A stretch of 36,636 nt of DNA from Candidatus Thermokryptus mobilis (GCF_900070205.1 NZ_FAOO01000006.1:87593-124228), one strand, 5' to 3'. Positions 101 through 35,272 are shown, numbered from the stretch's first letter. Numbers and translations are program-made. Notes: generated from the sequence alone by a model not told the origin.

Positions 101-1303
101 TTAAGGTTTTGAAACGAGTTTTTGTTTGCGATATTTCTCATACGCCTTCATCAAAAGCTCAACCACCTGCACCTTTTCGGAATCCGTAAGCATAATTTGA
201 CTTCCTAAAACAATTGACATTGTCCCTGTTGGTTCTTTAATAAAGTTTTCAAGCGTTTTACCGAATTTACTTGGAACATCTTCAACAGCATTGCTGAGGT
301 CTGGTCCGATTTTTGCAGCCGATTCAATCCCAAAAACAGAGATTGAATGGCAAACAAAACAACCCTTGTTTACGAAGAAAGCCCCCTCACCTTCACGCAT
401 CTGCCTTTCCTTTTCAAGCTCCTCGGGTGTCGGAAGATCAGCAAGAGCAGTTCCAGACTGCGGATAATACTGAGGTGGCAAATTCACTTTTTTCCAGCTC
501 ATCACAAGAAGCGTCAAAGCTATCGCCTCCCTTGACCCGAAACCCATCTCAGGCATGATGCTTTCAGGAGAGACCATCTTCGGATTCTTAAAATGAGCCA
601 CATGCCAAGCAAACACCGACTTTTTACCCCAAATTCTGGAATAATCAAACTGTTCAGGTGCTTTATCTCCTTCGTATGTTAAATCTGGACCTATGACACC
701 ACCGCGACCGTTAATTTTATGACAAGCGCGACATCCTTTCTCCTTGACCAACTTCTTCGCATAATTGATGTAATCAGCCCCAGGAGTTAAAGTGTCATAA
801 CGATGACAAATGTTACAATTCATCTGAAGCAAAACTTTTCTATCAGGCGGTCTGTAAATATCTTCAAGCTCTTTCCCTAACAATGGCTCTTCCCAGTGTT
901 CAATAAATCCATGCGCCTCCTCCTTATTTAAAGCATAACCTTGTCCCCCATGACAAATTGTGCAACCATACTGTGAAACGGGATGCTTCTCAAGTATTTC
1001 CTTTGGGTGCGTTTTAAATGGATTCGGTGCATTCTCAAGACCCTTCCATTCGTAACCCATATGACAGGTTATACAACGATCAACCCTGTTAAGTTCTTTG
1101 ACATAAATTTGCTTTATCCCACCTTCAATGACCTTCGCCTTTTCTACCCCGAGCTTATCCTTCACATACTCCTTAAATTCAGATTGATATCTTTTCCATT
1201 CCGGCGTAAAATAACCAGCATAAACGACGACAGTGACTAACAGCCCTATCAGTGAGATCGCATAAACTAAAACAACATCCCTTTTTAACTTCTCCTTGTC
1301 CAT
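101..1303 (-). CDS. Membrane-anchored pentaheme cytochrome c of Rieske/cytochrome b complex 1
   Basis: This 400-residue protein has one N-terminal transmembrane segment (about 9-30) and five CxxCH heme c sites, at about residues 77, 114, 163, 191 and 315. The last two lie in class I cytochrome c-like domains. It sits 20 bases downstream of cytochrome b and the Rieske gene, where a cytochrome c1 or f gene would be expected, so it probably takes electrons from the Rieske protein on the outer side of the membrane. Its first three heme sites align with those of the octaheme protein at 11447-14044: both show RVDRCxTCH, then an Ala-Pro-x-Pro-Phe stretch, then GCTxCHxGQG and an AHG/HWE segment. The two are therefore paralogues. 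The heme count is read directly; the role is inferred from context. Confidence 0.9.
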   Translation of the reverse strand: MDKEKLKRDVVLVYAISLIGLLVTVVVYAGYFTPEWKRYQSEFKEYVKDKLGVEKAKVIEGGIKQIYVKELNRVDRCITCHMGYEWKGLENAPNPFKTHPKEILEKHPVSQYGCTICHGGQGYALNKEEAHGFIEHWEEPLLGKELEDIYRPPDRKVLLQMNCNICHRYDTLTPGADYINYAKKLVKEKGCRACHKINGRGGVIGPDLTYEGDKAPEQFDYSRIWGKKSVFAWHVAHFKNPKMVSPESIMPEMGFGSREAIALTLLVMSWKKVNLPPQYYPQSGTALADLPTPEELEKERQMREGEGAFFVNKGCFVCHSISVFGIESAAKIGPDLSNAVEDVPSKFGKTLENFIKEPTGTMSIVLGSQIMLTDSEKVQVVELLMKAYEKYRKQKLVSKP

Positions 1304-1323: not shown

Positions 1324-2658
1324 TTAAAATTTCTTTGGAATCTCAGGCCACTTCTCCCACGGGAAGTAAAATTCCCAATTTGGACCACGCATGTAAGTTC
1401 CAATTATTATCAAAGCTATGACCAAAAAGCAAAGCACAAGGAAAACGAGATTTTGCCTTGTTCTCTCCTTACTAAACCAGACACCGGTTGAAAAACTTGA
1501 ACTCTTATCAAGATAAGGCCATATAGCAAGCAATAACACGAGGACACCAGGGATTAAAATCCCACCGATAAAAGCACCGTTTAAAACAAAGCTTCCAATC
1601 CTTATCGTCGTGATGGCAACCAGTTCCTGCAACCATAAGAAATACCAAGGCGCCTTTGCAGGATTTGGTGTGACATGAGGATTAGCTGGCTCCTCAAGTG
1701 GTGCACGAAAGAATAAACTTATCAAAGCAACGAAAACGAATGTCCCCAACATCACAAGCCCAATCCTTCTGATTAAAAATGGGATTGAATTAACAGTATA
1801 TTTCTCCTCATCAATTAAAGTCGCCTCAACTTGAACAGTCCTACCCGTTGTCAAACCAAGAAGCGAATAAGTTTTACTCTTAATCCCATCTTTTACCTTT
1901 TCCTTCTTCTGATTTAAAACCAGATTATCAACGCAGGCAAGCCCACCATCTTTCCTTATCCTCCACATATGATATGAAAAAAGTATCAAAACAGCAGCCG
2001 GAAGAAAGAAACAATGAAGCACATAAAACCTTAACAAAGCATTTTGCTCAATCTCATGACCCCCGAGAAGAATAAATCTAACCCATTCACCAACTATTGG
2101 AGCATTTTTAGCTATATTTGTCCCTACAGTTATAGCCCAAAAAGCAAGTTGATCCCAAGGTAAAAGATAACCGGTAAAGGAAAGAAGCAAAGTTATCAAA
2201 AGCAAGGCAACACCGACAAGCCAATTCAAGGGTCTATTCTGACCAACCCCAACTCCATTCTTATAAGCACCCGTTAAAAAGACCCTGACCATGTGCAGAA
2301 AGACAATCGCAACCATTAAATGAGCCGAATTCCTATGCATCGCCCTTATGAACCAGCCGAAAGAAACGACATACTCTATATCCTTAACACTCTGATAAGC
2401 CCGCTCAACTGATGGAACATACAAAAACATCAAGACAACACCTGTTATCGTTAATATCAAAAAAAGAGATGCGGATATTGTCCCAAGCCAAAGCGAATAT
2501 CCCCAAGACAAACTTCTCAATGTCACCTTCGCTGGAAACCAATGCAAAAGCAAATTCCTAACTATTGACTCACCCGCTTCCTTCTCCGACCTTGGCGCCC
2601 AAGTCCAAAATATGCTCCGACCATTAAATTTCCTTTCACTTATTTTTACTTCAGCCAT
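1324..2658 (-). CDS. Cytochrome b, one-piece b6/subunit IV fusion (complex 1)
   Basis: This 444-residue cytochrome b is the quinol-oxidising core of a Rieske complex. The N-terminal half is b6-like: it contains MHRNSAHLMVAIVFLHMVRV, with heme-ligand histidines 14 positions apart, the Qo-region GYLLPWDQL, and VLHCFFLPAAVLILFSYHMW, whose paired His are 15 positions apart as in b6-type proteins. The C-terminal half resembles subunit IV. Its Qo loop reads KAPWYFLWLQE, so the canonical PEWY motif is altered. A hydrophilic linker of roughly 60 residues joins the halves. The gene lies between the Rieske and pentaheme genes. The second complex in this window has a similar protein split into two genes. 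Confidence 0.93.
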   Translation of the reverse strand: MAEVKISERKFNGRSIFWTWAPRSEKEAGESIVRNLLLHWFPAKVTLRSLSWGYSLWLGTISASLFLILTITGVVLMFLYVPSVERAYQSVKDIEYVVSFGWFIRAMHRNSAHLMVAIVFLHMVRVFLTGAYKNGVGVGQNRPLNWLVGVALLLITLLLSFTGYLLPWDQLAFWAITVGTNIAKNAPIVGEWVRFILLGGHEIEQNALLRFYVLHCFFLPAAVLILFSYHMWRIRKDGGLACVDNLVLNQKKEKVKDGIKSKTYSLLGLTTGRTVQVEATLIDEEKYTVNSIPFLIRRIGLVMLGTFVFVALISLFFRAPLEEPANPHVTPNPAKAPWYFLWLQELVAITTIRIGSFVLNGAFIGGILIPGVLVLLLAIWPYLDKSSSFSTGVWFSKERTRQNLVFLVLCFLVIALIIIGTYMRGPNWEFYFPWEKWPEIPKKF

Positions 2659-2683: not shown

Positions 2684-3181
2684 TTACACTGTCAACTTAT
2701 AATTTTTCGGCACTATCTTGTTAAGGTCAACAACAAGTTTCCCATCCTCTGGCGAAACCTCAACCTTCACCCAATCAAGGGGTCTTGGCGCAGGTCCAGC
2801 ATAATTTGTCCCATCTCCATAAAACTTTGACCCATGGCAAGGGCAATGGAATTCCCACTTGACCTCAACCTCTTCTCCACCAATTTTGATAACCTTCGGC
2901 TTTGAAAGAGCAACATACTTGACAGTGCAACCAAGATGAGTGCAAACCGCAGAAATAGCATAAAATGTCTTCCCCTCACGAAATATGTATGTCTTCAAAT
3001 CATCAATGAATGTCACACCATCAGGGATATTATCCGGCTCGTCAAGCTTAACCCGACGGACGCTTTCATAACTCACATTTGGAAAGAGTGATCTAAGCCA
3101 CGTGTAAATTTGCCCCGCAAGCGCAAGAATAAGTGAACCGATGCCTAAATTCTTCAAAAATTTTCTTCTGTCAATTTTCAT
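2684..3181 (-). CDS. Rieske [2Fe-2S] protein with Tat signal (complex 1)
   Basis: The Rieske subunit transfers electrons from quinol at the Qo site to the cytochrome c. The two cluster-binding boxes are CTHLGC and CPCHGSKF, followed by the usual GPAPRPLDWV stretch. The N-terminus, MKIDRRKFLKNLG followed by a hydrophobic helix, is a twin-arginine signal-anchor, so the folded cluster domain would be exported. I chose the ATG at 3181 (165 residues). A TTG at 3214 would add 11 residues and overlap the upstream flavoprotein gene, but the Tat motif sits naturally at the ATG start. The gene lies 22 bases after the flavoprotein stop. Confidence 0.92.
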   Translation of the reverse strand: MKIDRRKFLKNLGIGSLILALAGQIYTWLRSLFPNVSYESVRRVKLDEPDNIPDGVTFIDDLKTYIFREGKTFYAISAVCTHLGCTVKYVALSKPKVIKIGGEEVEVKWEFHCPCHGSKFYGDGTNYAGPAPRPLDWVKVEVSPEDGKLVVDLNKIVPKNYKLTV

Positions 3182-3203
3182 TTTCCAAAGCAAATTTATT
3201 TTT

Positions 3204-5126
3204 TTAATCCTCAATTACCTCCCGCTCCACATAATACATTTTCTCCATCGTCATCGCTTCAGTCGGACAAACAATGGCACAAAGCCCACATCTTATACAT
3301 TTCTCATCATCCTTTATCATAGCAGAAAGCGGAACCCCATTACCAAATTGATAATGTTGTAAAAGTTTCTCCTTAGTTTCATCATCAAGCTCAAGTTCCT
3401 CAATCGGAACGAGTTTCAAACAATACTCTGGACAAACATCTGTGCAAGCCCCACACAAAATACATTTCTCAGCATCATAAATTGTCTGTATATGGCACAA
3501 CAAACATCTCTTCGCCTGCTCAACCGCTTGTTCTTCGGTATAACTCATCTCAACCTCAACTATTCCGGTCCTCCTATCAATCGGGACAGTATCTGGTGGC
3601 TTTCTTGGTGTGATTTCATACCCAACATAAGTTGAATAATTTCTTTTCTCAATCTTCTCAACAAAGAGATTAAACACTTTCTTCGTTTTCAACCCTCTCA
3701 AATAATTGTCAATTGAGATTGCAGCTTGTTTCCCATTTGCAATCGCATCAATTAAATTTCTCGGACCAAACGCAGCATCACCACCGGCAAAAACACCCGG
3801 AGCCGTTGTCTCAAGCGTCTCAGGGTTAACCTTTATCGTCCCACCAGCTGTAAGTTCAATTCCATCTTCCGGCTTTATAAAGTTCAAATTTGGTCTTTGC
3901 CCAATGGCAAGTATAACAGTGTCAGCCTCAACATATTCACTTATGCTCTCGTCAAAAATTGGATTAAATCGCCCGTTTTCATCATAAGTCCTTTTGACAC
4001 CGATAAACTCAATTCCCTTGACCTTGCCATTCTCACCGAGGAATCTTTTAACCCCCCTTTGCGGATGAAATATAATCCCCTCTTTTACAGCTTCTTCAAA
4101 CTCCTCCTTTCCTTGCGCCGTTCTTAACACTGGCATCTCTTCGAACGATTCCAAACTCGCTATATGAATTTCAAGCACGCCAGCTCTCCTTGCAGTCCTC
4201 GCAGCGTCCATCACAATGTTATATGTTGAACCATTCCCAATCTTTTCTTTCTCCTCCATCTCAACAGCCATCCTAAGAGCAGTCCTTGCAGCATCAAAAG
4301 CCACGAATCCACCCCCTATGACAAAAACCTTCTCACCGAGCTCAACCCTATATCCATTATTGATATTTATCAAGAAGTCAATCGCTTTAATTATACCATC
4401 AAGATTTGAACCTTCAACATTCATCTCCCTCCCTTCTTGAGTGCCAACAGCAATGAATATCGCATCAAACTCTTCTCTTAGCTCTTTTATCCCGAAATTT
4501 TTAGTCAAAGGTGTAAGCGTTCTGACCTCAACCCCAAGCCACAAAATTTTATTTATCTCCTTCTCAATTATGCTCCTTGACAACCTAAACTCAGGAATCC
4601 CATGCCTCATCATTCCCCCAAGGACATTTGACGCCTCAAAAACCGTCACCTGATATCCTATCAAAGCAAGGTCGTGGGCACAAGCAAGACCAGCTGGACC
4701 TGCACCAATTATTGCGACTTTTTTATCCCTGACATCTGCCTTTCTAACTTTAGCTAGCGTCGGCAAATGCCAAAACAATTTGTTGTCCTCAACATCAAAA
4801 TCACCCTCAAAAAGCTCATCCTGCGTATCCGGATAAAGCGACTCAACACCATATTTCTCAGTTAGAAACCTTTTCAATGCTCGTATCGTAACAGGTTTAT
4901 CAATGCTACCCCTCCTGCAAAAATCTTCACACGGAGCTGCGCAAACCCTTCCGCAAACAGAAGCAAACGGATTTGGAGCCCTCGCCACAAAATATGCCTC
5001 TTTATACCTCCCCTCTGCTATCAATTGAACATACCTGCCAGCATCGGTATGAATCGGACAAGCTGCCTGACACTTGACCTGCTTCTGCCAGTAAAGTAAA
5101 TCTGGAATAAAAACATTATATCCCAT
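3204..5126 (-). CDS. GltD-like FAD/NAD(P) oxidoreductase with C-terminal 2x[4Fe-4S] module
   Basis: The 640-residue protein has the layout of the glutamate synthase small-subunit/dihydropyrimidine dehydrogenase family. An N-terminal cysteine-rich [4Fe-4S] domain (Cys at about 20, 24, 59, 63, 67, 71) is followed by an FAD-binding VAIIGAGPAGLACA at about 138-151. An NAD(P)-binding VFVIGGGFVAFDAA at about 268-281, and the second FAD contact GVFAGGDAAFGP at about 445-456, come next. The C-terminal ferredoxin module carries CILCGACTDVCPEYC and CIRCGLCAIVCP with an insertion of about 40 residues between them. There is no glutamate synthase large subunit nearby. The ATG overlaps the Rrf2 stop as TGATG, and a Rieske gene follows, so it is probably the NAD(P)H- or ferredoxin-linked module of this cytochrome b complex. 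The direction of electron flow is unknown. Confidence 0.88.
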   Translation of the reverse strand: MGYNVFIPDLLYWQKQVKCQAACPIHTDAGRYVQLIAEGRYKEAYFVARAPNPFASVCGRVCAAPCEDFCRRGSIDKPVTIRALKRFLTEKYGVESLYPDTQDELFEGDFDVEDNKLFWHLPTLAKVRKADVRDKKVAIIGAGPAGLACAHDLALIGYQVTVFEASNVLGGMMRHGIPEFRLSRSIIEKEINKILWLGVEVRTLTPLTKNFGIKELREEFDAIFIAVGTQEGREMNVEGSNLDGIIKAIDFLININNGYRVELGEKVFVIGGGFVAFDAARTALRMAVEMEEKEKIGNGSTYNIVMDAARTARRAGVLEIHIASLESFEEMPVLRTAQGKEEFEEAVKEGIIFHPQRGVKRFLGENGKVKGIEFIGVKRTYDENGRFNPIFDESISEYVEADTVILAIGQRPNLNFIKPEDGIELTAGGTIKVNPETLETTAPGVFAGGDAAFGPRNLIDAIANGKQAAISIDNYLRGLKTKKVFNLFVEKIEKRNYSTYVGYEITPRKPPDTVPIDRRTGIVEVEMSYTEEQAVEQAKRCLLCHIQTIYDAEKCILCGACTDVCPEYCLKLVPIEELELDDETKEKLLQHYQFGNGVPLSAMIKDDEKCIRCGLCAIVCPTEAMTMEKMYYVEREVIED

Positions 5127-5605
5127 CAATTAAGCCCCATTTGAGTTTTAAACTTCTTCAACAGAATAAAATCCTCCGCAAATTGAAGAACTCTCTTACC
5201 GTTCCTCATATCTTTGACCAAATCGGCTAAACTTTCGTGATCAAGAAGAGCTCTAACCTGATTTTTTATCTTAATCCAATAATCATGAAGGGCGCACGGA
5301 TTCTGACTATCACACGGACCAACGCGCAAAATACAAGAATCAAACCAATCCGTTCCATCTATCGCTTTAATTATATCAAAAATTGTGATCTCCTTTGGGT
5401 CTTTTGCGAGAACAAATCCCCCAGCAGGTCCTTTTATTGAATGAAGAAATCCCGCCTTTACGAGAATTTGCATAACCTTATTCAAAAACTCCTTCGGTAT
5501 GGATAATGCCCCTGCGATTTGCTTTGCTAAGATAGGTTCATCCGTGTTAAGAGAAGCTATAAAAATCATTGCCTGAATGGCGTATTTACAGGTCTTGCTG
5601 AGCAA
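5126..5605 (-). CDS. Rrf2-family Fe-S transcriptional regulator heading the complex 1 operon
   Basis: This 159-residue regulator has an N-terminal winged helix (LSKTCKYAIQAMIFIA, then AKQIAGALSIPKEFLNKVMQ) and the family signature GPAGGFVLA. Cysteines at 91, 98 and 104 plus His107 closely match the cluster-ligand spacing of IscR (92, 98, 104 and His107), so an Fe-S cluster sensing redox, oxygen or iron state is likely. The start is a TTG: an in-frame TGA lies just upstream and the first helix begins immediately, so no ATG fits. It is the first gene of the operon and overlaps the flavoprotein ATG by one base. It is likely to control its own operon, which is an inference from position. Confidence 0.9.
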   Translation of the reverse strand: MLSKTCKYAIQAMIFIASLNTDEPILAKQIAGALSIPKEFLNKVMQILVKAGFLHSIKGPAGGFVLAKDPKEITIFDIIKAIDGTDWFDSCILRVGPCDSQNPCALHDYWIKIKNQVRALLDHESLADLVKDMRNGKRVLQFAEDFILLKKFKTQMGLN

Positions 5606-16919: not shown

Positions 16920-17267
16920 TTAACCAGAGTCAACCGAAACCATATCAATTGTCTCCCACGGGCAATACTTCGCACAAAGCTTACAACCAATGCAGATATC
17001 TTCATCAACGATGACAATTCCATTGATATTTGAAAAAGGATTTATTCCCTTCTCAACACTTTCGCGCAAAATCCCAAGCGTCGTTGATTTCACACCGTTA
17101 AATGAGTCAATAAATTCTGGACCTTTAACTTTATATATACAATCAACGGGGCAAAATTCAATGCAGACCTCGCAACCCGTGCATCCTGTTGGATTAACTA
17201 CAGCGATAAGTTTGACCTTTTTCTTTCTTATTGGTTTTGTAGTTTCATTTATCTGGACCTGTGACAT
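16920..17267 (-). CDS. 2x[4Fe-4S] ferredoxin with long inter-cluster insertion
   Basis: This 115-residue ferredoxin binds two cubane clusters through CTGCEVCIEFCPVDC and CIGCKLCAKYCP, separated by a loop of about 55 residues. There is a short basic N-terminus (KPIRKKKVKL). No signal peptide is present, so it acts in the cytoplasm. Both the long insertion and the extra Cys three residues after the first CP match the C-terminal module of the flavoprotein in the complex 1 operon. It may thus be the electron-transfer partner on the cytoplasmic face of complex 2, which is an inference. It is separated by 13 bases from the 39-residue ORF and by 26 from Rrf2. Confidence 0.88.
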   Translation of the reverse strand: MSQVQINETTKPIRKKKVKLIAVVNPTGCTGCEVCIEFCPVDCIYKVKGPEFIDSFNGVKSTTLGILRESVEKGINPFSNINGIVIVDEDICIGCKLCAKYCPWETIDMVSVDSG

Positions 17268-17402: not shown

Positions 17403-17761
17403 TTAAAAATAAGTTCTATCCCGAACATCGGTAGCAACGAATCCAGATATTAACTTTTTCCTCTTTTCTCGTACAATTTTATCTGCATTTGCCTTTTCGT
17501 ATTCTTCAGCCGAATCAACTAAAACTGTGACGACATTATTTCTCACCTCGGCGAAACCATCCGAAACAACGAAATAAATTTTATTTCCGTTTTCATCAAC
17601 AATTTTAACTTCTCCAATTTCAAGCAAGCTCACAAGCGGTGCGTGATTATATAAAACCTGAAAACTTCCCATAACCCCGGGCAAGGTAACGCTTTTAACC
17701 TTACCCTTATAAACGACTTTCTCCGACGTTAAAATTTCAAGTTGAATTAATTTATCTTGCA

Positions 17762-17762
<1 letters not shown>
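17403..17762 (-). CDS. atpC: ATP synthase F1 epsilon subunit
   Basis: This protein of about 119 residues has the epsilon N-terminal beta-sandwich (LIQLEILTSEKVVYKGKVKS, then VTLPGVMGSFQVLYNHAPLV and SDGFAEVRNNVVTVLVDSAE) and a shortened helical C-terminus. The inhibitory helical hairpin found in longer epsilon subunits is therefore reduced. The ATG overlaps the atpD stop as TGATG, so the two are translationally coupled. In Chlorobi and relatives atpD-atpC typically stand apart from the other F1Fo genes, as here; no other ATP synthase gene is in the window. Confidence 0.93.
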
Positions 17763-19238
<1,476 letters not shown>

Positions 19239-21414: not shown

Positions 21415-22080
21415 TCAAAGAAGATAAAAGAAGGCGAATATAAACACCCAGACAAGGTCAACAAAATGCCAATAAAGTCCAGCGACTTCAACGCCTTCAT
21501 AAGAACCTCTCTTATCGTAAATTCCCTTTGCAACTCTTATCGCCATAATTGTTAAAACTATAACTCCACTTAACACATGGGAGCCGTGAAATCCAGTTAT
21601 GACAAAAAATGATGCTGAAAAAAGCGGAACACCCCAAGGATTTGAAGTCAAACGAGCACCCTCATGGATTAAGTGTCCCCATTCGTATGCTTGACAAAGT
21701 AAAAATGTCAAACCGCCAAGAATCGTCAGACCGAGATATTTCAAAACACCTTTTCTATCCATTCTCTTTCCAGCATCAACAGCAAGGGCCATCGTCAAAG
21801 AGCTACATATCAAAATAAATGTCATTAAGCTGACGAACATAAGCGGTAATTTTGCATTAATGAAAGGAAAAGATGAAAAAATTTCAACTCGTGATGGCCA
21901 CTCAGGCAAGCTTGCACGAAGAGAGCCATAACCAGCGAGCAATCCTCCGAATGTAAAAGCATCCGAAAGTATAAAAATCCACATTGTGAACTTTTCCCTT
22001 GAAACGCCAAATGGCGACTTACCACCGCCCCAATCTGATTTCAAGACCCTTTCCTGCTCAAAAATCGCTTCCTGTGTCAT
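21415..22080 (-). CDS. Cytochrome c oxidase subunit III (intact copy)
   Basis: This 221-residue heme-copper oxidase subunit III has REKFTMWIFILSDAFTFGGL at the start, GLTFLLCQAYEWGHLIHEGA, FVITGFHGSHVLSGVIVL and the C-terminal GVEVAGLYWHFVDLVWVFIF. All expected helices are present in one frame. The upstream neighbour is a second, shorter subunit III whose last helix is out of frame. The pair may both belong to the same oxidase, since duplicated subunit III genes occur in FCB bacteria. Confidence 0.93.
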   Translation of the reverse strand: MTQEAIFEQERVLKSDWGGGKSPFGVSREKFTMWIFILSDAFTFGGLLAGYGSLRASLPEWPSRVEIFSSFPFINAKLPLMFVSLMTFILICSSLTMALAVDAGKRMDRKGVLKYLGLTILGGLTFLLCQAYEWGHLIHEGARLTSNPWGVPLFSASFFVITGFHGSHVLSGVIVLTIMAIRVAKGIYDKRGSYEGVEVAGLYWHFVDLVWVFIFAFFYLL

Positions 22081-22103
22081 TTAACTTCCTTCAAATTTTG
22101 TTT

Positions 22104-22212
22104 TTAAATCGTTGACTTTATAAAGATGAAAAGATAAAGCCAAAGGACACCAAGAAAATGCCAGTATGTTATGCAAAGTTCAACGCCAAGCTTATTTCCT
22201 TGAATTGTAAAA
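22104..22212 (-). other. Out-of-frame C-terminal helix of the second subunit III
   Basis: Immediately after the in-frame stop of the upstream gene, a different frame on the minus strand encodes KLGVELCITYWHFLGVLWLY and then a hydrophobic end, stopping at TAA (22106-22104). This is unmistakably the last transmembrane helix of subunit III (compare GVEVAGLYWHFVDLVW in the intact copy). Joining needs a +1 shift near the TTTT run at 22209-22212; one T fewer restores a continuous protein. This explains why the 110-base gap exists. Confidence 0.85.
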
Positions 22213-22746
22213 CCCTTTCAACGCTTTAATTAAAACATAAATCATAGATACAACCCCGCCAAAAAGATGCAGTCCGTGAAGCCATGTCAAAAGATAAAAG
22301 AACGAACTTGAAGGGTTGGTGTTTACATAGACCCCATAACTTCTCAACTGACCCCATCCAATTACTTGCCCGACTAAAAATGTAATCCCAAGCAATGCCG
22401 AGGCAAGGAAAAGAAATTTGAACTCTAAAATTCTATCCTTCTTTAAGCGAAGATAGCTCAACTGTATCATCATACTGCTTAAAATTAGAACGAAAGTATT
22501 AAACCAAAAAATGCTTGGTAGATTAAATCTAAGCCAGTTCCCAGCAGCGTGTCTTACTATATATGCGCTTGTTATAGCAGCAAAGAGCATGATTATAGCC
22601 GATATAAAGAGCCAAAGCCCGAATTTGGCGGGGTTTATGGGGAGGGCATAGGAGGAATGCCCGCCCGCACCACCACCTCCATTGTTAAAAGTCCCGCCAA
22701 TATCTATATTTGTGATACCGCTTTTTTTCTCTTTTTCAATTACCAT
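22192..22746 (-). CDS. Cytochrome c oxidase subunit III-like protein, frameshifted before its last helix
   Basis: The 184-residue frame has a Gly-rich N-terminus (GGTFNNGGGGAGGH) and five helices typical of subunit III: FGLWLFISAIIMLFAAITSA, then WFNTFVLILSSMMIQLSY, a helix ending in TFLVGQVIGWGQLR, and FYLLTWLHGLHLFGGVVSMI. It ends KALKGFYNSRK, where the family continues into a helix containing YWHF. That helix is encoded in another frame just downstream (22104-22212). The truncation therefore comes from a one-base difference in the GGGTTTTAC sequence. It could be a sequencing error, a true mutation or programmed +1 frameshifting. It begins 20 bases after ctaB ends. Confidence 0.85.
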   Translation of the reverse strand: MVIEKEKKSGITNIDIGGTFNNGGGGAGGHSSYALPINPAKFGLWLFISAIIMLFAAITSAYIVRHAAGNWLRFNLPSIFWFNTFVLILSSMMIQLSYLRLKKDRILEFKFLFLASALLGITFLVGQVIGWGQLRSYGVYVNTNPSSSFFYLLTWLHGLHLFGGVVSMIYVLIKALKGFYNSRK

Positions 22747-28546: not shown

Positions 28547-29006
28547 TTTCTCTCCACTTTTTTATTTGTTCTTTGATTTCATCAATGACCTTATCAATAG
28601 CTTCGGTTACCTCCGGGCTCATTTTATCCCCCCATTGGTTCGTTTTCGGCTGAACCCCAACCACTAAACTTTCACTTGGTTTTATATCAAGTAGATTCAT
28701 CAAAGCTACCACCTCGTGAAATGTTATTTGATGCTCCGATACTTTAAAACCTATATAACTCGGGATTTCTTCAAGTTTAAACTTCGCCACCTCTCCTGGC
28801 TTGCCGTTAAAATTAATTGCGTCAATAACAATCAGATGTGTTTTACCTTCAAGATATGGCAAAAGATAAATACCGAGGGAACCGCCATCAATTATTTCAA
28901 CATCTGGCGATTCCCCTATTTCTTGAGAGAGTCGCTTCACGACTTCAACGCCAAATCCATCATCCCCAAGCAATGGATTTCCAATTCCAAGGATACCTAT
29001 TTTCAT
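28536..29006 (-). CDS. hyaD: NiFe hydrogenase maturation endopeptidase
   Basis: This protease of about 156 residues clips the C-terminal tail of the large subunit after Ni insertion. It has GILGIGNPLLGDDGFGVEVV with the first Ni-sensing acidic residue, IEIIDGGSLGIYLLPYL-like strands (here VEIIDGGS), and SEHQITFHEVVAL with the Ni-sensing histidine. The ATG at 29006 overlaps the stop of the cytochrome b subunit as ATGA; an ATG six codons earlier is possible. The symbol is the E. coli Hyd-1 name for this family; hupD is the equivalent in other bacteria. Confidence 0.92.
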   Translation of the reverse strand: MKIGILGIGNPLLGDDGFGVEVVKRLSQEIGESPDVEIIDGGSLGIYLLPYLEGKTHLIVIDAINFNGKPGEVAKFKLEEIPSYIGFKVSEHQITFHEVVALMNLLDIKPSESLVVGVQPKTNQWGDKMSPEVTEAIDKVIDEIKEQIKKWRESAN

Positions 29007-29740
29007 TTCTCTTTCTTTTCCCATGGCTTTTCAATTGGTTCCCATCCCAAGGGTCTTGTTTTAAGTCCGGTTATCATAGACGAGAGCATCCCTTTCTCGC
29101 GGAAAACCTCAAGATAAATCACAAAGCTTATATGATGAATCATGAATCCAATTATTCCCCACATTATCATTTTGTGTATCATTCTAACATTTGCTTCTCC
29201 TCCGAATAATGGTATAACCCAACCGAAAAGGGTATCAAAGAAACCACCCGGGTTTATTCTCCCAGCCATCGCAAAACCAGTTAAACCTTGGACAGAGGCA
29301 GCAAGGAAAAGGATAACATAAGTTAATGTGGCAAGCGTATTATGACCAAGTGTGTGAAGTTCATAGTCGGTATAGCGAAGAGTTATATAATCTTTTAATT
29401 TCCACCACGCTTCTTTCCAAAAATCAGCTCTCCAGATATGAAATCTAAACCATTGTCTGTAAGTTTTTCCCGCAAACCACCAGTATGCTCTAAACAAACC
29501 GTTGAGCGTAAAAATTATTGCTGACAGGAAGTGTAAATTTTTCATCGTCGCCATAATAGTTGCACTAAATGGCTCATCAGCATTGGGGCGATAAAATGGT
29601 GTGCTAATATAAAGCCCTGTAAAAATTAACACGCCAACAACGATGACATTAATCCAATGGCTTATCCTGACCACAGGGTCCCAAACATAGTACCTCGTCA
29701 CGCATTCACTTTCAACGCGATAAATTTGATTTGCTTGCAT
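29003..29740 (-). CDS. hyaC: NiFe hydrogenase b-type cytochrome subunit
   Basis: This 245-residue membrane protein carries electrons from the hydrogenase small subunit to quinone. It has VWDPVVRISHWINVIVVGVL, NLHFLSAIIFTLNGLFRAYW, HTLGHNTLATLTYVILFLAA, MIHKMIMWGIIGFMIHHISF and a C-terminal LKTRPLGWEPIEKPW. Its four helices supply the histidine ligands for two hemes b. The gene follows the large subunit by 21 bases. A membrane anchor of this type places the hydrogenase on the periplasmic face, delivering electrons to the same quinone pool that feeds the Rieske complexes. Confidence 0.94.
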   Translation of the reverse strand: MQANQIYRVESECVTRYYVWDPVVRISHWINVIVVGVLIFTGLYISTPFYRPNADEPFSATIMATMKNLHFLSAIIFTLNGLFRAYWWFAGKTYRQWFRFHIWRADFWKEAWWKLKDYITLRYTDYELHTLGHNTLATLTYVILFLAASVQGLTGFAMAGRINPGGFFDTLFGWVIPLFGGEANVRMIHKMIMWGIIGFMIHHISFVIYLEVFREKGMLSSMITGLKTRPLGWEPIEKPWEKKEK

Positions 29741-29761
29741 TTTTCACACCCTCCTTACTTT

Positions 29762-31498
29762 TTATAAAATTTCAATTTTCGTTATCTCATTTCCGTTAAC
29801 ATCAAGGACATGGGTTGAACACGCAAGGCAAGGGTCAAAGGAATGTATGACTCTTAAAATTTCAAGTGGTTTATGTGGGTCATGCAGAGGAACACCGATC
29901 AATGACTCTTCCATTGGACCTCTTTGTCCCATTGCATCTCGTGGAGAACCGTTCCAGGTAGTTGCGACGACAGCTTGATAGTTTGCAATTTTTCTATCTT
30001 TTATCTTGACCCAATGTGCAAGGGCTCCGCGAGGCGCAGCATAAACTCCAACCCCTTTTAGTTCATCTTTTGGCCAAGTTGACGGGTCCCATTTTTCCAT
30101 ATTTGCAGTTTGATAGTCGCCAGCCTTTATATTCGTGATAAGCTCATCGTAAAGTTTCTTCAGCATGTTCATTGCTCTTCTTGTTTCAATTCCTCTTGCA
30201 ATTGTTCTCCCCAATGTTGAATATATCGCTTTAAATGGAAGATCAAGTCTTTTCAGTGCTTCATCAACATATGCTTTAACTTCGTCGTCTTTATGAGCCA
30301 GGGCGATTATCGTGCGGGCAAGTGGACCCCCTTCCATTGGCTTACCTCTCCAACGCGGGGCTTTCATCCAGGAGTATTTTTTGCCCATGTCAAGAAATTC
30401 CCACGGCGGTGTTGGTCCAGTATACTTCGGGTTCGTTTCCCCTTCCCAGGGATGAAACGCGATTTTATCACCCTTTGAATATTCAAACCAAGAGTAGGAA
30501 ACATATTCTTGAATTTGCTCTGGATCAGTTGGATCAACTTCGTGGACTTCGTTCAAGTTTCCGTTTAAAACGACTCCACCCTTCCACCTGTTCGTCTTCA
30601 TAATAGTTTTGACATCGGCTGATACTTCTGGGAACTCACCGTAGTCAAGGACACCTTTATCACTTACGCCACCGCCCCATTTTGCCCATTCCTTATAGAA
30701 AGACATTATCGCAACGAGATCGGGCCAGTAGAGTTGCTCAACGATTTGCTCTGCTTCTTCAATTTTTGATTTAACAAGCGCTAGTTTATCAATGTTTATC
30801 GCGTCGGGATGATTTAAATTGATAGCACATGGCATACCTCCAACGATCAAATTTGGATGCGGATTTTTACCACCGAAAACAGCATGAATTTTAACAATCT
30901 CCTTTTGCCAATTCAAAGCTTCAATGTAATGAGCAACAGCTAGGAGATTAACCTCTGGGGGAAGCTTATATCCGGGGTGACCCCAATATGCGTTGGCGAA
31001 AATTCCAAGCTGACCCGACTCGACGAATTTCTTCAGCCGATTTTGAACATCAGTGAAATATCCAACGGATGACTTTGGCCAATTTGAAATTTTTTGAGCA
31101 AGCTCAGCCGTTGCCTTTGGGTTAGCTTTCAAAGCGGATACGACATCAACCCAATCAAGGGCGTGGAGATGATAGAAGTGAACCACATGGTCATGGACGA
31201 AAAGCGTAGCGATCATTATGTTTCTTATCAAGTTCGCATTTTTCGGAATTTCAATTTTGAGTGCGTCTTCAATTGCTCTGACGGATGTAACTGCATGCAC
31301 AAGGGTGCAGACACCGCAAATCCTTTCAGCTAACGCCCAAGCTTCCCTTGGGTCGCGATCACGCAAAATTATTTCAATTCCTCTGAAAAGAGCGCTTGTG
31401 CATGAGGCATCCTTAACAACATTTCCATCAACAATAGCTTGAACTCTTAAATGACCCTCAATTCGGGTCATCGGGTCTATTACAACTTTTTGTGCCAT
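29762..31498 (-). CDS. hyaB: Group 1 NiFe hydrogenase large (catalytic) subunit
   Basis: This 578-residue subunit holds the NiFe(CN)2CO site. The two Cys pairs are in RICGVCTLVHAVTSVRAIED near the N-terminus and SFDPCLACSTHVLD near the C-terminus. After the conserved His a 15-residue tail (VLDVNGNEITKIEIL) remains for removal by the adjacent protease. The N-terminal VVIDPMTRIEGHLR is the usual start of the family. It has no signal peptide and would be exported together with the Tat-bearing small subunit. It lies 3 bases after the small subunit gene. Confidence 0.97.
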   Translation of the reverse strand: MAQKVVIDPMTRIEGHLRVQAIVDGNVVKDASCTSALFRGIEIILRDRDPREAWALAERICGVCTLVHAVTSVRAIEDALKIEIPKNANLIRNIMIATLFVHDHVVHFYHLHALDWVDVVSALKANPKATAELAQKISNWPKSSVGYFTDVQNRLKKFVESGQLGIFANAYWGHPGYKLPPEVNLLAVAHYIEALNWQKEIVKIHAVFGGKNPHPNLIVGGMPCAINLNHPDAINIDKLALVKSKIEEAEQIVEQLYWPDLVAIMSFYKEWAKWGGGVSDKGVLDYGEFPEVSADVKTIMKTNRWKGGVVLNGNLNEVHEVDPTDPEQIQEYVSYSWFEYSKGDKIAFHPWEGETNPKYTGPTPPWEFLDMGKKYSWMKAPRWRGKPMEGGPLARTIIALAHKDDEVKAYVDEALKRLDLPFKAIYSTLGRTIARGIETRRAMNMLKKLYDELITNIKAGDYQTANMEKWDPSTWPKDELKGVGVYAAPRGALAHWVKIKDRKIANYQAVVATTWNGSPRDAMGQRGPMEESLIGVPLHDPHKPLEILRVIHSFDPCLACSTHVLDVNGNEITKIEIL

Positions 31499-31501
31499 TT
31501 T

Positions 31502-32605
31502 TCACTCCTCCTTTTGTTTCTTTTCTTCAACTTTTGATTCTTTCGCTTTCTGGGTTGCTTTTTTAACAATTGAAGCTACAAGATGAGCCCCTGTTGCAAC
31601 TGCAACCCCAATTGCAAATCCTTTACCTATGTCATCAGCCGTTGCAAATCCAGGCAAAGGAACATCCGCAACATGTTGATAAAGTGGTCTATTGTCCCAA
31701 TAATCTGGCTCGGAACAACCAAGGCAGGGATGTCCAGATTGAATCGGAAAGCTTGTCCCTTCATTCCATCTGACAACCGAACAAGCATTATATGTGACCG
31801 GTCCCCTACAACCAACTTTATACAGACACCATCCCTTTCTTGCTCCTTCATCATCAAATTTCTCAACGAACATACCCGCATCAAAAAATGCTCTGCGATA
31901 ACATTTGTCATGAATTCTCTGTCCATAAAACACCCTCGGTCGTTTCAAGTTATCAAGCGCTGGCAAAGAGTCAAATGTAATTAAATGAACTATCGTTCCG
32001 ACAATAACTTCAGCTATTGGCGGGCAACCCGGGATATTTACAACTGGCTTATCGCTTATCAACTTGTAAATCGGTTTAGCTCCCGTTGGATTTGGATGTG
32101 CTGTCGTGACACAACCGAATGAGGAACAAGAACCGACGGAGATGATCGCTTTTGCGCCTTGAGAAGCTTTTTTAAGATATTCAAGCGCTGTCATTCCGCC
32201 AACTGTGCAATAAACACCCCCATCCTTTGTTGGGACAGAACCCTCAACAGCGAGGATATAATTTCCAAAGTTCTTTTTCATCCCCTCCCAAACTATTTCC
32301 TCCGCTTGATGACCAGCTGCAACTTGAATCGTTTCCATATAGTCAAGCGAGATTATATTTAAGACGACATCTGAAATCAACGGATGTGAAGACCTTATCA
32401 ATGACTCCGTGCAACAAGTGCAAGCTGCAAAGTTAAGCCAATAAATTGGGGGACGAGGTTTTGACTCAAGGGCACGAACAATTTTCGGAAACATTGTGCT
32501 CTCAAGCCCAAGATAGGCGGTGGTAAGAAGACAGAACCTCAAAAAATCACGCCTTGAGATCCCGCTTCTTTTCACCGCCTCATAAAATGTCTCCTGCCTC
32601 TGCAT
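31502..32605 (-). CDS. hyaA: NiFe hydrogenase small subunit with oxygen-tolerant six-Cys proximal cluster
   Basis: This 367-residue Fe-S subunit has a Tat signal (SRRDFLRFCLLTTAYLG). The proximal-cluster region reads CTCCTESLIRSSHP (Cys at about 62, 64, 65), then GSCSSFGCVTTAHPNP (about 160 and 165) and IPGCPP (about 194). Standard enzymes have CTGC and lack the second Cys after GSC. The two extra Cys match those of the [4Fe-3S] cluster of oxygen-tolerant Hyd-1/MBH (group 1d). A C-terminal hydrophobic helix and a Lys/Glu-rich tail anchor it. The start is the ATG at 32605, 8 bases after GGGAGG. Confidence 0.95.
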   Translation of the reverse strand: MQRQETFYEAVKRSGISRRDFLRFCLLTTAYLGLESTMFPKIVRALESKPRPPIYWLNFAACTCCTESLIRSSHPLISDVVLNIISLDYMETIQVAAGHQAEEIVWEGMKKNFGNYILAVEGSVPTKDGGVYCTVGGMTALEYLKKASQGAKAIISVGSCSSFGCVTTAHPNPTGAKPIYKLISDKPVVNIPGCPPIAEVIVGTIVHLITFDSLPALDNLKRPRVFYGQRIHDKCYRRAFFDAGMFVEKFDDEGARKGWCLYKVGCRGPVTYNACSVVRWNEGTSFPIQSGHPCLGCSEPDYWDNRPLYQHVADVPLPGFATADDIGKGFAIGVAVATGAHLVASIVKKATQKAKESKVEEKKQKEE

Positions 32606-32628
32606 CTTTAAAACCTCCCTTTGTTTTA

Positions 32629-33099
32629 TCAAATTTGTTTTTCAAGTTGAACAAATCTCCCATATTTAAATCCCATCTTCCGCAAAAAGCCGAGCGTCTC
32701 CTCATCCGCAAATTCAGTAACCGTGCAAACCCTTCTCAATCCAAGCTCCCTAACCTTGTCAAGAAACTCAACCAAAAGACGTCTTCCAATGCCTCTCCTT
32801 CTGTAATCCGGATGGACAACAATTGCTATAAGCCAAGCACACTCAGGACCTTGATACCATTTGGGTTGCGTATCCCCAAAAATAAATCCAACTGGCTTGT
32901 CGCCAAGATAGGCAATTCTACCAAACAAACTTCCCGAACTCTGTATTTCTTTTAAAAGTTCAATAAACATCCTCTCACAAAAAAAGCTATAACATCCCTT
33001 CTCTTTTAATTCCTTTTGAAACTTTACAATATGCTCCATATCGTAAGCCGAAAACTCCTTAGTTTCAATCTTCTCAAAAAGTTGCCTCTTCAAATTCAA
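32629..33099 (-). CDS. GNAT-family N-acetyltransferase
   Basis: This 156-residue protein has the GNAT acetyl-CoA-binding motif IVVHPDYRRRGIGRRLLVEF followed by a C-terminal strand/helix region (RRVCTVTEFADEETLGFLRK, then MGFKYGRF). The substrate is unknown. It starts with TTG, overlapping the stop of the FAD oxidoreductase as TTGA, and is 23 bases upstream of the hydrogenase small subunit. It is therefore embedded in the CO dehydrogenase/hydrogenase operon, although no role for an acetyltransferase there is established. Confidence 0.85.
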   Translation of the reverse strand: MNLKRQLFEKIETKEFSAYDMEHIVKFQKELKEKGCYSFFCERMFIELLKEIQSSGSLFGRIAYLGDKPVGFIFGDTQPKWYQGPECAWLIAIVVHPDYRRRGIGRRLLVEFLDKVRELGLRRVCTVTEFADEETLGFLRKMGFKYGRFVQLEKQI

Positions 33100-34343
33100 A
33101 GCAAACTTTGTTCAAAAATTTTAACAGGTTTAGAGGAAGGTGCTGTCATCCCGATGAGGTCGCGAAAACCGTTGAATTTATCTATGTTAATTTTGACTTT
33201 TCTTCTGATGACACTTTTTATAAGTCCCGCATATTTAACATCTCCAACGATTTCGGCACCAATGAGGCGATTTCTTTCAAAATAGTAAAGTTCAATAACC
33301 CCGTCGCCTTTAATTTCCTTGCGAAGTTTCTCTTCATCGTAAACATCTCCGATTGAAAAGTAAACCTTATCAAAAACGGTAAGCGAATTAACTCTTATAC
33401 CGCCCTCGTAATTAACATTCTTTCCTACGATATTTGCCCCCGCAACCCTTCCCGTTTCCATTGCGTTAGCCCAAACAGGGAAAGGTCTTATTGAGTCATC
33501 AATTACGCTTCTTAGCTCAATGCAATCACCAGCAGCGTAAATATCTGGCTCAGATGTGCGCATTTTGTCGTCAACAAGAATTCCACCCCTTGGTCCAAAC
33601 TTCAAAACACCACTTACAAAATCAACATTTGGAACAACCCCAACCCCGATTATCACAGATGAGCATTTTATCTTTCTTTTATTCGTCTTTACGGACTTAA
33701 CAGGATTTCCTGATATTTCAATTGGCTTCTCCTCTTTTAAAATTTCAATCCCATTTTCAATAAGTTGTCTCTCAATCATTTCCGCAACCCGTCTGCTGAA
33801 AACAGTGCTCAAGATGTAAGGCGCTATCTCAATTATTGTTATCCTCTTTTTAAACCTTAAAAGTGCAAGTGCCGACTCAACACCAACCGGTCCGCCCCCA
33901 ATTATGACAACCTCTTTTGAATCATCACTTTTGATTTTTTCTGCGTCCTCATAAGTTCTCAAAACATAAACCCTCTTATTCCTCTCCCCCGGGATACCGG
34001 GTAACCTCGGCGAAGCCCCACTTGCTATAAGGAGTTTATCATACTTGTATTCACTCTTGTCAGTCATTAAAACTTTATTTTTAGCGTCAACCTTAATAGC
34101 TCGCTCGCCAAGTTTCAGGTTCACATTCATATACCTGTAAAAGTCATCTCGTATTGAAAATAAATTTTCCTTTGACAAGGTCCCCTCAATATAATAGGGC
34201 AAAACGACCGGGGAATAGTAAGGCATCCCCGGCTCAAGCGCTTCCTTTGAGATTACATTTATTGAACTTTTCGTGTCCCATTTTCTTATCTCGCGAACGG
34301 CTGAGATGCTTGCGATACTATTTCCTACGATAAAAATTTTCAC
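33096..34343 (-). CDS. FAD-dependent NAD(P) oxidoreductase of the CO dehydrogenase operon
   Basis: This 415-residue class I pyridine nucleotide-disulfide-type reductase resembles NADH oxidase and nitrite reductase-like flavoproteins. An N-terminal FAD motif is slightly degenerate (IFIVGNSIASISAVREIR), followed by YDKLLIASGASPRLPGIPGE, the NAD(P) motif VVIIGGGPVGVESALALL and the FAD contact DIYAAGDCIEL. Flavoproteins of this type accompany cooS and a CooF ferredoxin in several CO-oxidising bacteria, where they are thought to reduce NAD(P) with CO electrons. It is 14 bases downstream of cooC. No CooF ferredoxin is in the window; it may be upstream of cooS. The product could instead handle oxygen as an NADH oxidase. 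Confidence 0.87.
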   Translation of the reverse strand: MKIFIVGNSIASISAVREIRKWDTKSSINVISKEALEPGMPYYSPVVLPYYIEGTLSKENLFSIRDDFYRYMNVNLKLGERAIKVDAKNKVLMTDKSEYKYDKLLIASGASPRLPGIPGERNKRVYVLRTYEDAEKIKSDDSKEVVIIGGGPVGVESALALLRFKKRITIIEIAPYILSTVFSRRVAEMIERQLIENGIEILKEEKPIEISGNPVKSVKTNKRKIKCSSVIIGVGVVPNVDFVSGVLKFGPRGGILVDDKMRTSEPDIYAAGDCIELRSVIDDSIRPFPVWANAMETGRVAGANIVGKNVNYEGGIRVNSLTVFDKVYFSIGDVYDEEKLRKEIKGDGVIELYYFERNRLIGAEIVGDVKYAGLIKSVIRRKVKINIDKFNGFRDLIGMTAPSSKPVKIFEQSLL

Positions 34344-34357
34344 AAAAACTTACTCAT

Positions 34358-35242
34358 TTAATTTTGAATCAGCTCTTTAAAAAGTTTTTTAATCGCCAGA
34401 ACAAAAGGCGAACCTGATTTGATCAACGGCTCAACCAACGGCTCAAATCTAAAAACATTTTCATCCCACGGCAAGAAATAAATTGGCAAGTTCAAAATCT
34501 TGCTATCAAGTCCCGATAAAATTTCCCTTACCTTTGTCTCTTCATCTCTAACTTTGTTGAAAACAAGATGGATATGTGGAATCCCCAATTTTTTCGCCAG
34601 ATTCACTGCTTGATTTAGCACAAAGATAGAATTAAATGTTGGCTCGGAAACAATTACAGCGTGATGAAATCCTTTTGCTATCGCCCTCCCAAAGTGTTCA
34701 AGTCCAGCTTCTGTGTCCATAATTATGACCTCTCCTTTGCGTAAATTGATATAATTTACAACCGCCTGAAGCAAATCATTTTCAGGGCATGCACATCCGA
34801 CCCCGGGTTGTTGAAAAGTTCCCATTACAAGAAGGTTTAAATTTTCCCTGATCCTTAGACCAAATCTATCAACGACATCACTGACATCAGGGTTTAATCT
34901 GAAGAACAGCCCCCAACCTGTCCCTGGTCTTGCACCTGTTTTCTCTTCAATATAATCAAGCTGTTTATTTAGCGGGATAATTTCATTTGCTTTTTCAAAA
35001 GGCACTCCAAGTGCGAAAGGTAAATTCATCTGCGGGTCCTCATCCACAGCTAAAACTTTTAAACCAGCTTCAGCGAACAAATACGCAAGCACAGCCGAAA
35101 TAACCGTCTTACCAACACCGCCTTTTCCAGTTATGACTATCCTCTTGCCAAGTTCAACTTTATTTTCAACATCTGGAATTTCAGATAAAATTTCCGCAAT
35201 GATTTTATCTCTTTCCTTTTCATCCGCTGTTGTAAACGACAT
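34358..35242 (-). CDS. cooC: CO dehydrogenase maturation ATPase CooC
   Basis: This 294-residue MinD-like ATPase helps insert nickel into the C-cluster of CO dehydrogenase. It has the deviant Walker A IVITGKGGVGKTVISAVLAY, switch region VLAVDEDPQMNLPFALGV, the CxC nickel-binding motif GVGCACPENDLL and GEVIIMDTEAGLEHFGRAIA. The N-terminal extension of about 30 residues (DEKERDKIIAEILSEIPDVE) is unusual, since the P-loop normally lies near the start. It follows cooS by 30 bases. Confidence 0.93.
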   Translation of the reverse strand: MSFTTADEKERDKIIAEILSEIPDVENKVELGKRIVITGKGGVGKTVISAVLAYLFAEAGLKVLAVDEDPQMNLPFALGVPFEKANEIIPLNKQLDYIEEKTGARPGTGWGLFFRLNPDVSDVVDRFGLRIRENLNLLVMGTFQQPGVGCACPENDLLQAVVNYINLRKGEVIIMDTEAGLEHFGRAIAKGFHHAVIVSEPTFNSIFVLNQAVNLAKKLGIPHIHLVFNKVRDEETKVREILSGLDSKILNLPIYFLPWDENVFRFEPLVEPLIKSGSPFVLAIKKLFKELIQN

Positions 35243-35272
35243 ATCAATTAAATTTTATGTTTTTCATTTTGT

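Follow-up and report, generated by a model that had tools for sequence, protein, structure and literature searches.

To our knowledge, NAD(P)H production by quinol bifurcation in a Rieske/cytochrome b complex has been argued for anammox bacteria only, and the design itself, an NAD(P) flavoprotein joined to Rieske and cytochrome b subunits, has so far been discussed for the same bacteria only. These organisms are difficult to grow and difficult to manipulate. The Rieske/cytochrome b subunits of Kuenenia comigrate, the potentials of its Rieske proteins are +303 and +335 mV, and its structural models trace Fe-S clusters to FAD (PMC12954380). An interface haem b is predicted there by AlphaFold3, with Kuste4571 His43 and Kustd1481 His62 as ligands (PMC12954380). 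In the open-licence literature, no account was found of such a flavoprotein module in Kryptonia, Ignavibacteria or Acidobacteria.

The flavoprotein operon, its sister operon and their distribution

The window, the whole stretch of 36,636 nucleotides that was analysed, comes from Candidatus Thermokryptus mobilis, a member of the hot-spring group Candidatus Kryptonia with an assembly 97.5% complete; among named organisms, Candidatus Chrysopegis kryptomonas is the closest to it, with a flavoprotein identity of 92%. Five genes on one strand (minus) form the flavoprotein operon, encoding an Rrf2 regulator, a GltD-like flavoprotein, a Rieske protein, a fused cytochrome b and a pentahaem cytochrome c. 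Positions 2684-5605, to which the preliminary description was confined, hold three of these five genes, with those for cytochrome b and the pentahaem cytochrome lying outside.

5605-5126, minus strand: Rrf2-family regulator, TTG start, stop TGA at 5128-5126 (Pfam Rrf2, E 3e-35)
5124..5128, minus strand: TGATG junction, Rrf2 stop and flavoprotein start with one base in common
5126..3204, minus strand: GltD-like FAD/NAD flavoprotein, 640 aa from the ATG at 5126 (Pfam Fer4_20, Pyr_redox_2, Fer4_7)
4872..5072, minus strand: N-terminal cluster domain of the flavoprotein; C19, C23, C58, C62, C66, C70 and K85 invariant in a 46-sequence alignment
4131..4316, minus strand: NAD-binding motif GGGFVAFDAAR ... 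SLES, with an insert of about 30 aa of low pLDDT between the two parts
3492..3509, minus strand: RCLLCH motif; C541 and C544 (the RCLxC pair) invariant in the 46 sequences
3267..3464, minus strand: C-terminal 2x[4Fe-4S] dicluster, C555-C620 (Pfam Fer4_7/Fer4)
3181..2684, minus strand: Rieske 2Fe-2S protein with CPCHGSKF, ATG at 3181, 22 bases past the flavoprotein stop (Pfam Rieske)
2658..1324, minus strand: cytochrome b, b6 and subunit IV fused, 444 aa (Pfam Cytochrome_B and its C-terminal domain)
1303..101, minus strand: membrane-anchored pentahaem cytochrome c, five CxxCH (Pfam Cytochrom_C)

The one-base stop/start overlap and the 22-base gap before the Rieske gene, both given in the preliminary description, proved exact, the former being read in the sequence as TGATG and the latter running from the stop end at 3204 to the Rieske ATG. 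An in-frame TTG at 5129 is a possible alternative start for the flavoprotein. The Rrf2 protein has three Cys spaced C-x6-C-x5-C, a pattern like that of Fe-S sensors, and its gene is the first of the operon in Kryptonia and also lies upstream in a minority of other lineages. A scan for promoters and terminators gave nothing usefully above chance.

The window also contains a sister operon, in which a ferredoxin gene precedes the Rieske and cytochrome b genes.

17267..16920, minus strand: stand-alone 2x[4Fe-4S] ferredoxin, resembling the C-terminal dicluster of the flavoprotein
16893-16450, minus strand: Rrf2
16390-15797, minus strand: Rieske protein, matching Kustd1480 (9rk3) at E 2.1e-49
15768-14992, minus strand: cytochrome b6, 66% to Kuenenia
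14983-14075, minus strand: subunit IV, 54% to Kuenenia
14050-11447, minus strand: octahaem cytochrome c

The order ferredoxin, Rieske, b6, IV and octahaem c is shared by three more families of the class, and the cytoplasmic outlet is likely modular, formed by an NAD flavoprotein in one version and by a dicluster ferredoxin in the other. Genes for the beta and epsilon subunits of ATP synthase stand alone at 17403-19174, directly upstream of the sister operon. Terminal-oxidase genes are present in the window, and their cluster contains two genes resembling cytochrome-oxidase subunit III, one after the other (21415-22746). At 29003-36634, the genes of a membrane-linked [NiFe] hydrogenase with cytochrome b come first, and those for an NAD(P)-disulphide-type flavoprotein, a CooC-like ATPase and a protein of the Prismane/CO dehydrogenase family lie behind them; oxidation of H2 and CO is a possible role of this cluster.

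A total of 80 loci were taken from the genome collection by flavoprotein similarity, and the counts describe that subfamily. The order flavoprotein, Rieske, cytochrome b and multihaem cytochrome c holds for the Rieske gene in 78/79 evaluable loci, for cytochrome b in 76/77 and for haem c in 73/74, and a chance neighbourhood was rejected because linkage in 78/79 is far beyond chance. The Rieske gene lies directly downstream on the same strand in 78 of all 80 loci; one contig (L067) stops after the flavoprotein and L025 is a real exception. The loci lacking cytochrome b (76 have one) or multihaem c (73) otherwise run out at the contig end. At L025:10001-14296, the flavoprotein is followed by no Rieske, cytochrome b or haem c gene, which counts against a fixed complex. 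Missing linkage in relatives, which the preliminary description had held would speak against its reading, did not appear. Among 61 genomes around the host, the flavoprotein and its type of cytochrome b are both present in 11 and both absent from 48, the flavoprotein occurs alone in two (both at contig ends) and its cytochrome b type alone in none. One member of the host's genus, G005, is 97% complete and has neither. Pairwise correlations between the four subunits' distance matrices are 0.78-0.89 (r 0.89 between flavoprotein and Rieske, 0.89 between flavoprotein and cytochrome b), and inheritance as a unit is therefore indicated, a conclusion that does not extend to contact.

The hosts comprise Kryptonia, Ignavibacteriota, Bacteroidota, Acidobacteriota, Myxococcota, Planctomycetota, Verrucomicrobiota, Neomarinimicrobiota, Calditrichota, Binatota and others, about a dozen phyla, several of these groups being single metagenome bins in which mis-binning is possible. 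The Myxococcota hosts are named Anaeromyxobacter strains (NZ_ records L049-L051). The FCB version foreseen in the preliminary description is present, but its reach was understated, as Acidobacteriota, Myxococcota, Verrucomicrobiota, Planctomycetota and others carry the module too. Dating or polarising of transfer between phyla was rejected, the family tree being a quick one with long anammox branches. Outside anammox bacteria, the module forms a fixed four-gene unit in roughly a dozen or more groups of bacteria, culturable ones among them, and the complexes there are predicted from their genes.

Conserved sites in the flavoprotein, cytochrome b and Rieske protein

The AF2 model of the flavoprotein (pLDDT 89, pTM 0.89) has its nearest solved folds in NfnABC (9bov, Z 36.5) and StnABC (8oh5, Z 35.8), with NfnL and GltD behind. 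At the NAD(P) ribose site, Glu is found in 76 of the 80 loci and Arg in both Kuenenia flavoproteins; the sequences of the aligned NADP-enzyme structures carry YRR, where Glu replaces Arg-Arg in the flavoprotein of the operon. We read this Glu as suggesting a preference for NAD(H). The insert in the NAD domain reaches 55 aa in some loci, is absent in Kuenenia and looks like an incomplete copy of the DAARTALR helix. In an alignment with NfnL, residues 510-540 fall opposite its residues 18-48, which puts the RCLxC motif on the C-terminal side here and on the N-terminal side in NfnL, and the Cys pair of the motif is therefore probably a source of ligands for an N-terminal cluster. Four Fe-S clusters would therefore be expected in the flavoprotein. 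Of the dicluster ligands, C555, C558, C561, C565 and C620 are invariant and the remaining three Cys at least 90% conserved in the same 46 sequences.

All NCBIfam cut-offs for GltD lie above the scores of this flavoprotein (302 of 472 bits for TIGR01316, 212 of 448 for TIGR01317 and 212 of 483 for TIGR01318). No GltB was found in the genome, the lone PF01645 match being an ORF of 500 aa that looks like IMP dehydrogenase, and a self-search of the genome gave no second GltD-like protein. The lack of a glutamate synthase partner, noticed in the preliminary description, thus extends to the whole 97.5%-complete genome, and neither GltB nor another partner elsewhere that co-varies with the flavoprotein, the finding it had named as contrary, appeared. 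Function as a glutamate synthase small subunit was rejected on the absence of the GltB partner.

The fused cytochrome b possesses four haem-b His, His39 in LHWFP, R235/K236 and the Qo motif APWY. Across the family, the LHxxP His is present in 76/76 loci, and the R and the K of RxRKDG, which would lie close to the propionates of the interface haem, in 74 each. AKAPWYF occurs in this operon and in 69 loci with a readable fused cytochrome b, in place of the canonical PEWY/PDWY motif. The haem-cN Cys is absent in all loci read, its place being taken by Trp in the flavoprotein operon and by Gly in the sister operon. Kuste4571 His43 and Kustd1481 His62 are the His of LHxxP and Kuste4571 Arg247 lies in RxRKDG, with H39 and R235 as equivalents; from this conservation of ligands, His39 is predicted as the probable site of an interface haem b. 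That the LHxxP His proves a coupled partner was rejected. It is also present in an octahaem-type operon of Chloracidobacterium (L199), beside which no flavoprotein or ferredoxin was found, and it therefore marks a cytochrome b subfamily and not a partner.

All Rieske proteins of the family that could be read (75/75) have CHGS, and in this operon it is combined with Phe replacing Tyr, which is the pattern of Kustd1480. It is established from work on Rieske proteins that the Ser of CHGS raises the potential, and the Rieske protein of the operon would by this motif be of the high-potential type. The same effect of the Ser is argued for in the anammox work (PMC12954380). The genome is a menaquinone genome, with menA, and it also encodes two canonical Rieske/cytochrome b operons.

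L148:3267-6454 and L149:4058-7074 (G000:C6, C13): canonical Rieske/cytochrome b operons, no flavoprotein, PEWY, no LHxxP

The motifs in their Rieske proteins are CPCHKG and CACHNG, against CPCHGS, with APWY in cytochrome b, in the coupled complexes. The two operons adjoin genes for 8-haem and 11-18-haem cytochromes, and that of L148 is also near genes for a molybdopterin-oxidoreductase-like and an Fe-S protein.

Proposed electron flow and its alternatives

With slightly better than even confidence, we read the flavoprotein operon as encoding one membrane complex for menaquinol bifurcation, with a high-potential branch to haem c and a low-potential branch to NAD+. What sequence contributes to this reading is the operon structure, the fixed linkage, co-inheritance, the anammox homology, the conservation of cofactor ligands, the NAD-type site and the contrast with canonical complexes. 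How the subunits assemble, which cofactors they bind and which way electrons run is our inference, as follows. An NAD(H)-type FAD/Fe-S module would lie on the cytoplasmic face of a menaquinol-oxidising Rieske/cytochrome b complex. Menaquinol would lose its electrons at the P-side site, one passing by the high-potential Rieske cluster and the pentahaem cytochrome c to terminal acceptors, and the other by haems bP and bN, and probably the interface haem b on His39, to the C-terminal dicluster, from which the N-terminal clusters and FAD would carry it to the reduction of NAD+. The uphill branch would be paid for by the exergonic one, and a high Rieske potential together with a menaquinone pool would allow haem bP to be very low, low enough for NAD+. 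The path cannot match that of Kuenenia exactly because the haem-cN Cys is missing here. Since [NiFe] hydrogenase and terminal-oxidase genes share the window, H2 could be a physiological source of electrons, which would enter at menaquinone. There is no evident demand for additional NADH, as most hosts look heterotrophic and the genome has homologues of complex I NuoD.

The preliminary description had proposed a Q-cycle complex exchanging electrons with NAD(P)H or ferredoxin, by reverse electron flow or flavin-based bifurcation. Its pyridine-nucleotide part is upheld by the anammox homologues and the fixed linkage, but ferredoxin coupling is not for the flavoprotein operon; it fits the sister operon instead, because a stand-alone dicluster ferredoxin is encoded there. 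The best reading is reverse electron flow or quinone-based bifurcation. In the opposite direction, NADH would reduce the flavoprotein and electrons would pass by the cytochrome b haems to menaquinone at the N side and/or to the haem c chain, giving an NADH:cytochrome c route. The site in the flavoprotein is of NADH type, the module is broad in apparently heterotrophic lineages (Acidobacteriota, Verrucomicrobiota, Anaeromyxobacter) and no sequence feature fixes the direction, yet we regard this route as rather unlikely: the uniform CHGS (75/75) beside low-potential-type canonical Rieske proteins in the genome fits bifurcation better, and redox energy would be wasted where complex I is present, the same argument that the anammox authors use (PMC12954380).

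Splitting of NADH electrons between cytochrome b and a soluble ferredoxin, through flavin-based bifurcation or ferredoxin:NAD coupling, would accord with closest folds that are subunits of the bifurcating NfnABC, StnABC and NfnSL, with the extra Fe-S clusters of the flavoprotein and with the ferredoxin of the sister operon. This part of the preliminary description does not hold up well and we consider it very improbable, because one FAD is predicted, as in the likewise single-FAD Kuenenia homologues, and a search of the operon and the conserved four-gene module gave no second flavin subunit, NuoF-like or NfnS-like. The protein folds like the flavoprotein module of NfnABC/StnABC, which is the NADP branch of those enzymes, not the bifurcating flavin. 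It is also improbable that the flavoprotein works on its own as a soluble oxidoreductase, GltD-like or a helper in Fe-S/haem maturation, and is merely co-transcribed with the rest. Its generic annotation is glutamate synthase small subunit-like and contact of the subunits is our reading of the genes; against this stand the missing GltB, the strict order over about a dozen phyla, with co-loss and correlated distances, and the comigration of the homologous subunits in Kuenenia (PMC12954380).

More tentatively, and as a possibility we hold with considerable doubt, menaquinol bifurcation to NAD+ in one complex may define a widespread class of respiratory complexes, in about a dozen or more phyla, that conserve redox power beyond proton-motive force and have a modular output, with an NAD flavoprotein in some members and a dicluster ferredoxin by itself in others. 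If true, the members with ferredoxin output would make reduced ferredoxin from menaquinol, and the version in the sister operon would be the minimal form of the same idea. The module in the named Anaeromyxobacter strains opens the question to gene deletion and purification, and the host genome, whose two coupled and two canonical operons share a menaquinone pool, supplies its own controls.

Comparison with described systems

GltD has the Fer4_20 and Pyr_redox_2 core in common with the flavoprotein, which differs by its C-terminal dicluster, its NADH-type site, its scores under the GltD cut-offs and a genome without GltB. The modules of NfnABC and StnABC (9bov, 9n5u, 8oh5) display the same fold, cluster motifs and relocation of RCLxC to the C-terminus, but they belong to soluble bifurcating transhydrogenases with further flavin subunits and possess the NADP-type YRR. 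Canonical bc1/b6f complexes, including those of L148 and L149, share haem-b ligands, the Rieske motif and the Q-cycle core with the operon; they differ in having PEWY and not APWY, no LHxxP His and no cytoplasmic redox subunit, with CHKG and CHNG in the L148 and L149 Rieske proteins.

The closest systems are those of Kuenenia. The best two PDB matches of the operon's Rieske protein are 9rk4 (E 1.6e-22) and 9rk3, both anammox crystal structures. Their titles, sequence features and gene context identify them as the Kuenenia Rieske proteins described in PMC12954380. The Kuenenia genome was recognised by a 100% match to 9rk3, and both its Rieske/cytochrome b operons were read. Its putative NAD(P) oxidoreductases align with the flavoprotein over nearly full length at 36% identity (E 1e-110 to 1e-121), and their models contain four clusters, the number predicted here. 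The anammox neighbourhoods mentioned in the preliminary description thus contain true homologues. A 700-aa flavoprotein of the same superfamily, with an NADH-like CLES motif, is encoded in Kuenenia outside the Rieske/cytochrome b operons (L196:5598-7697).

Kuste4569-4574 resembles the flavoprotein operon in its Rieske protein (39.5%), flavoprotein, LHxxP His, RxRKDG, APWY, CHGS and multihaem c. Its gene order is different (Rieske-flavoprotein-b-IV-c), cytochrome b and IV are split, and it has a haem-cN Cys, the NADP-type YRR and a hexahaem plus an HAO-like octahaem subunit of its own. Kustd1480-1485 has the same subunit set, but in the flavoprotein operon cytochrome b is fused and the cytochrome c has five haems. 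The sister operon is very close to Kustd1480-1485 (Rieske 58%, b6 66%, IV 54%, octahaem c), with a stand-alone ferredoxin in the place of the flavoprotein and no haem-cN Cys. As in the anammox type, a flavoprotein with Fer4_20, FAD/NAD(P) domains and a C-terminal dicluster is encoded with Rieske and cytochrome b in the flavoprotein operon, without the anammox-type haem-cN Cys in a b6-like four-helix cytochrome b with separate subunit IV. With this Cys missing and cytochrome b fused, the operon is therefore a variant and not a plain member of the anammox type.
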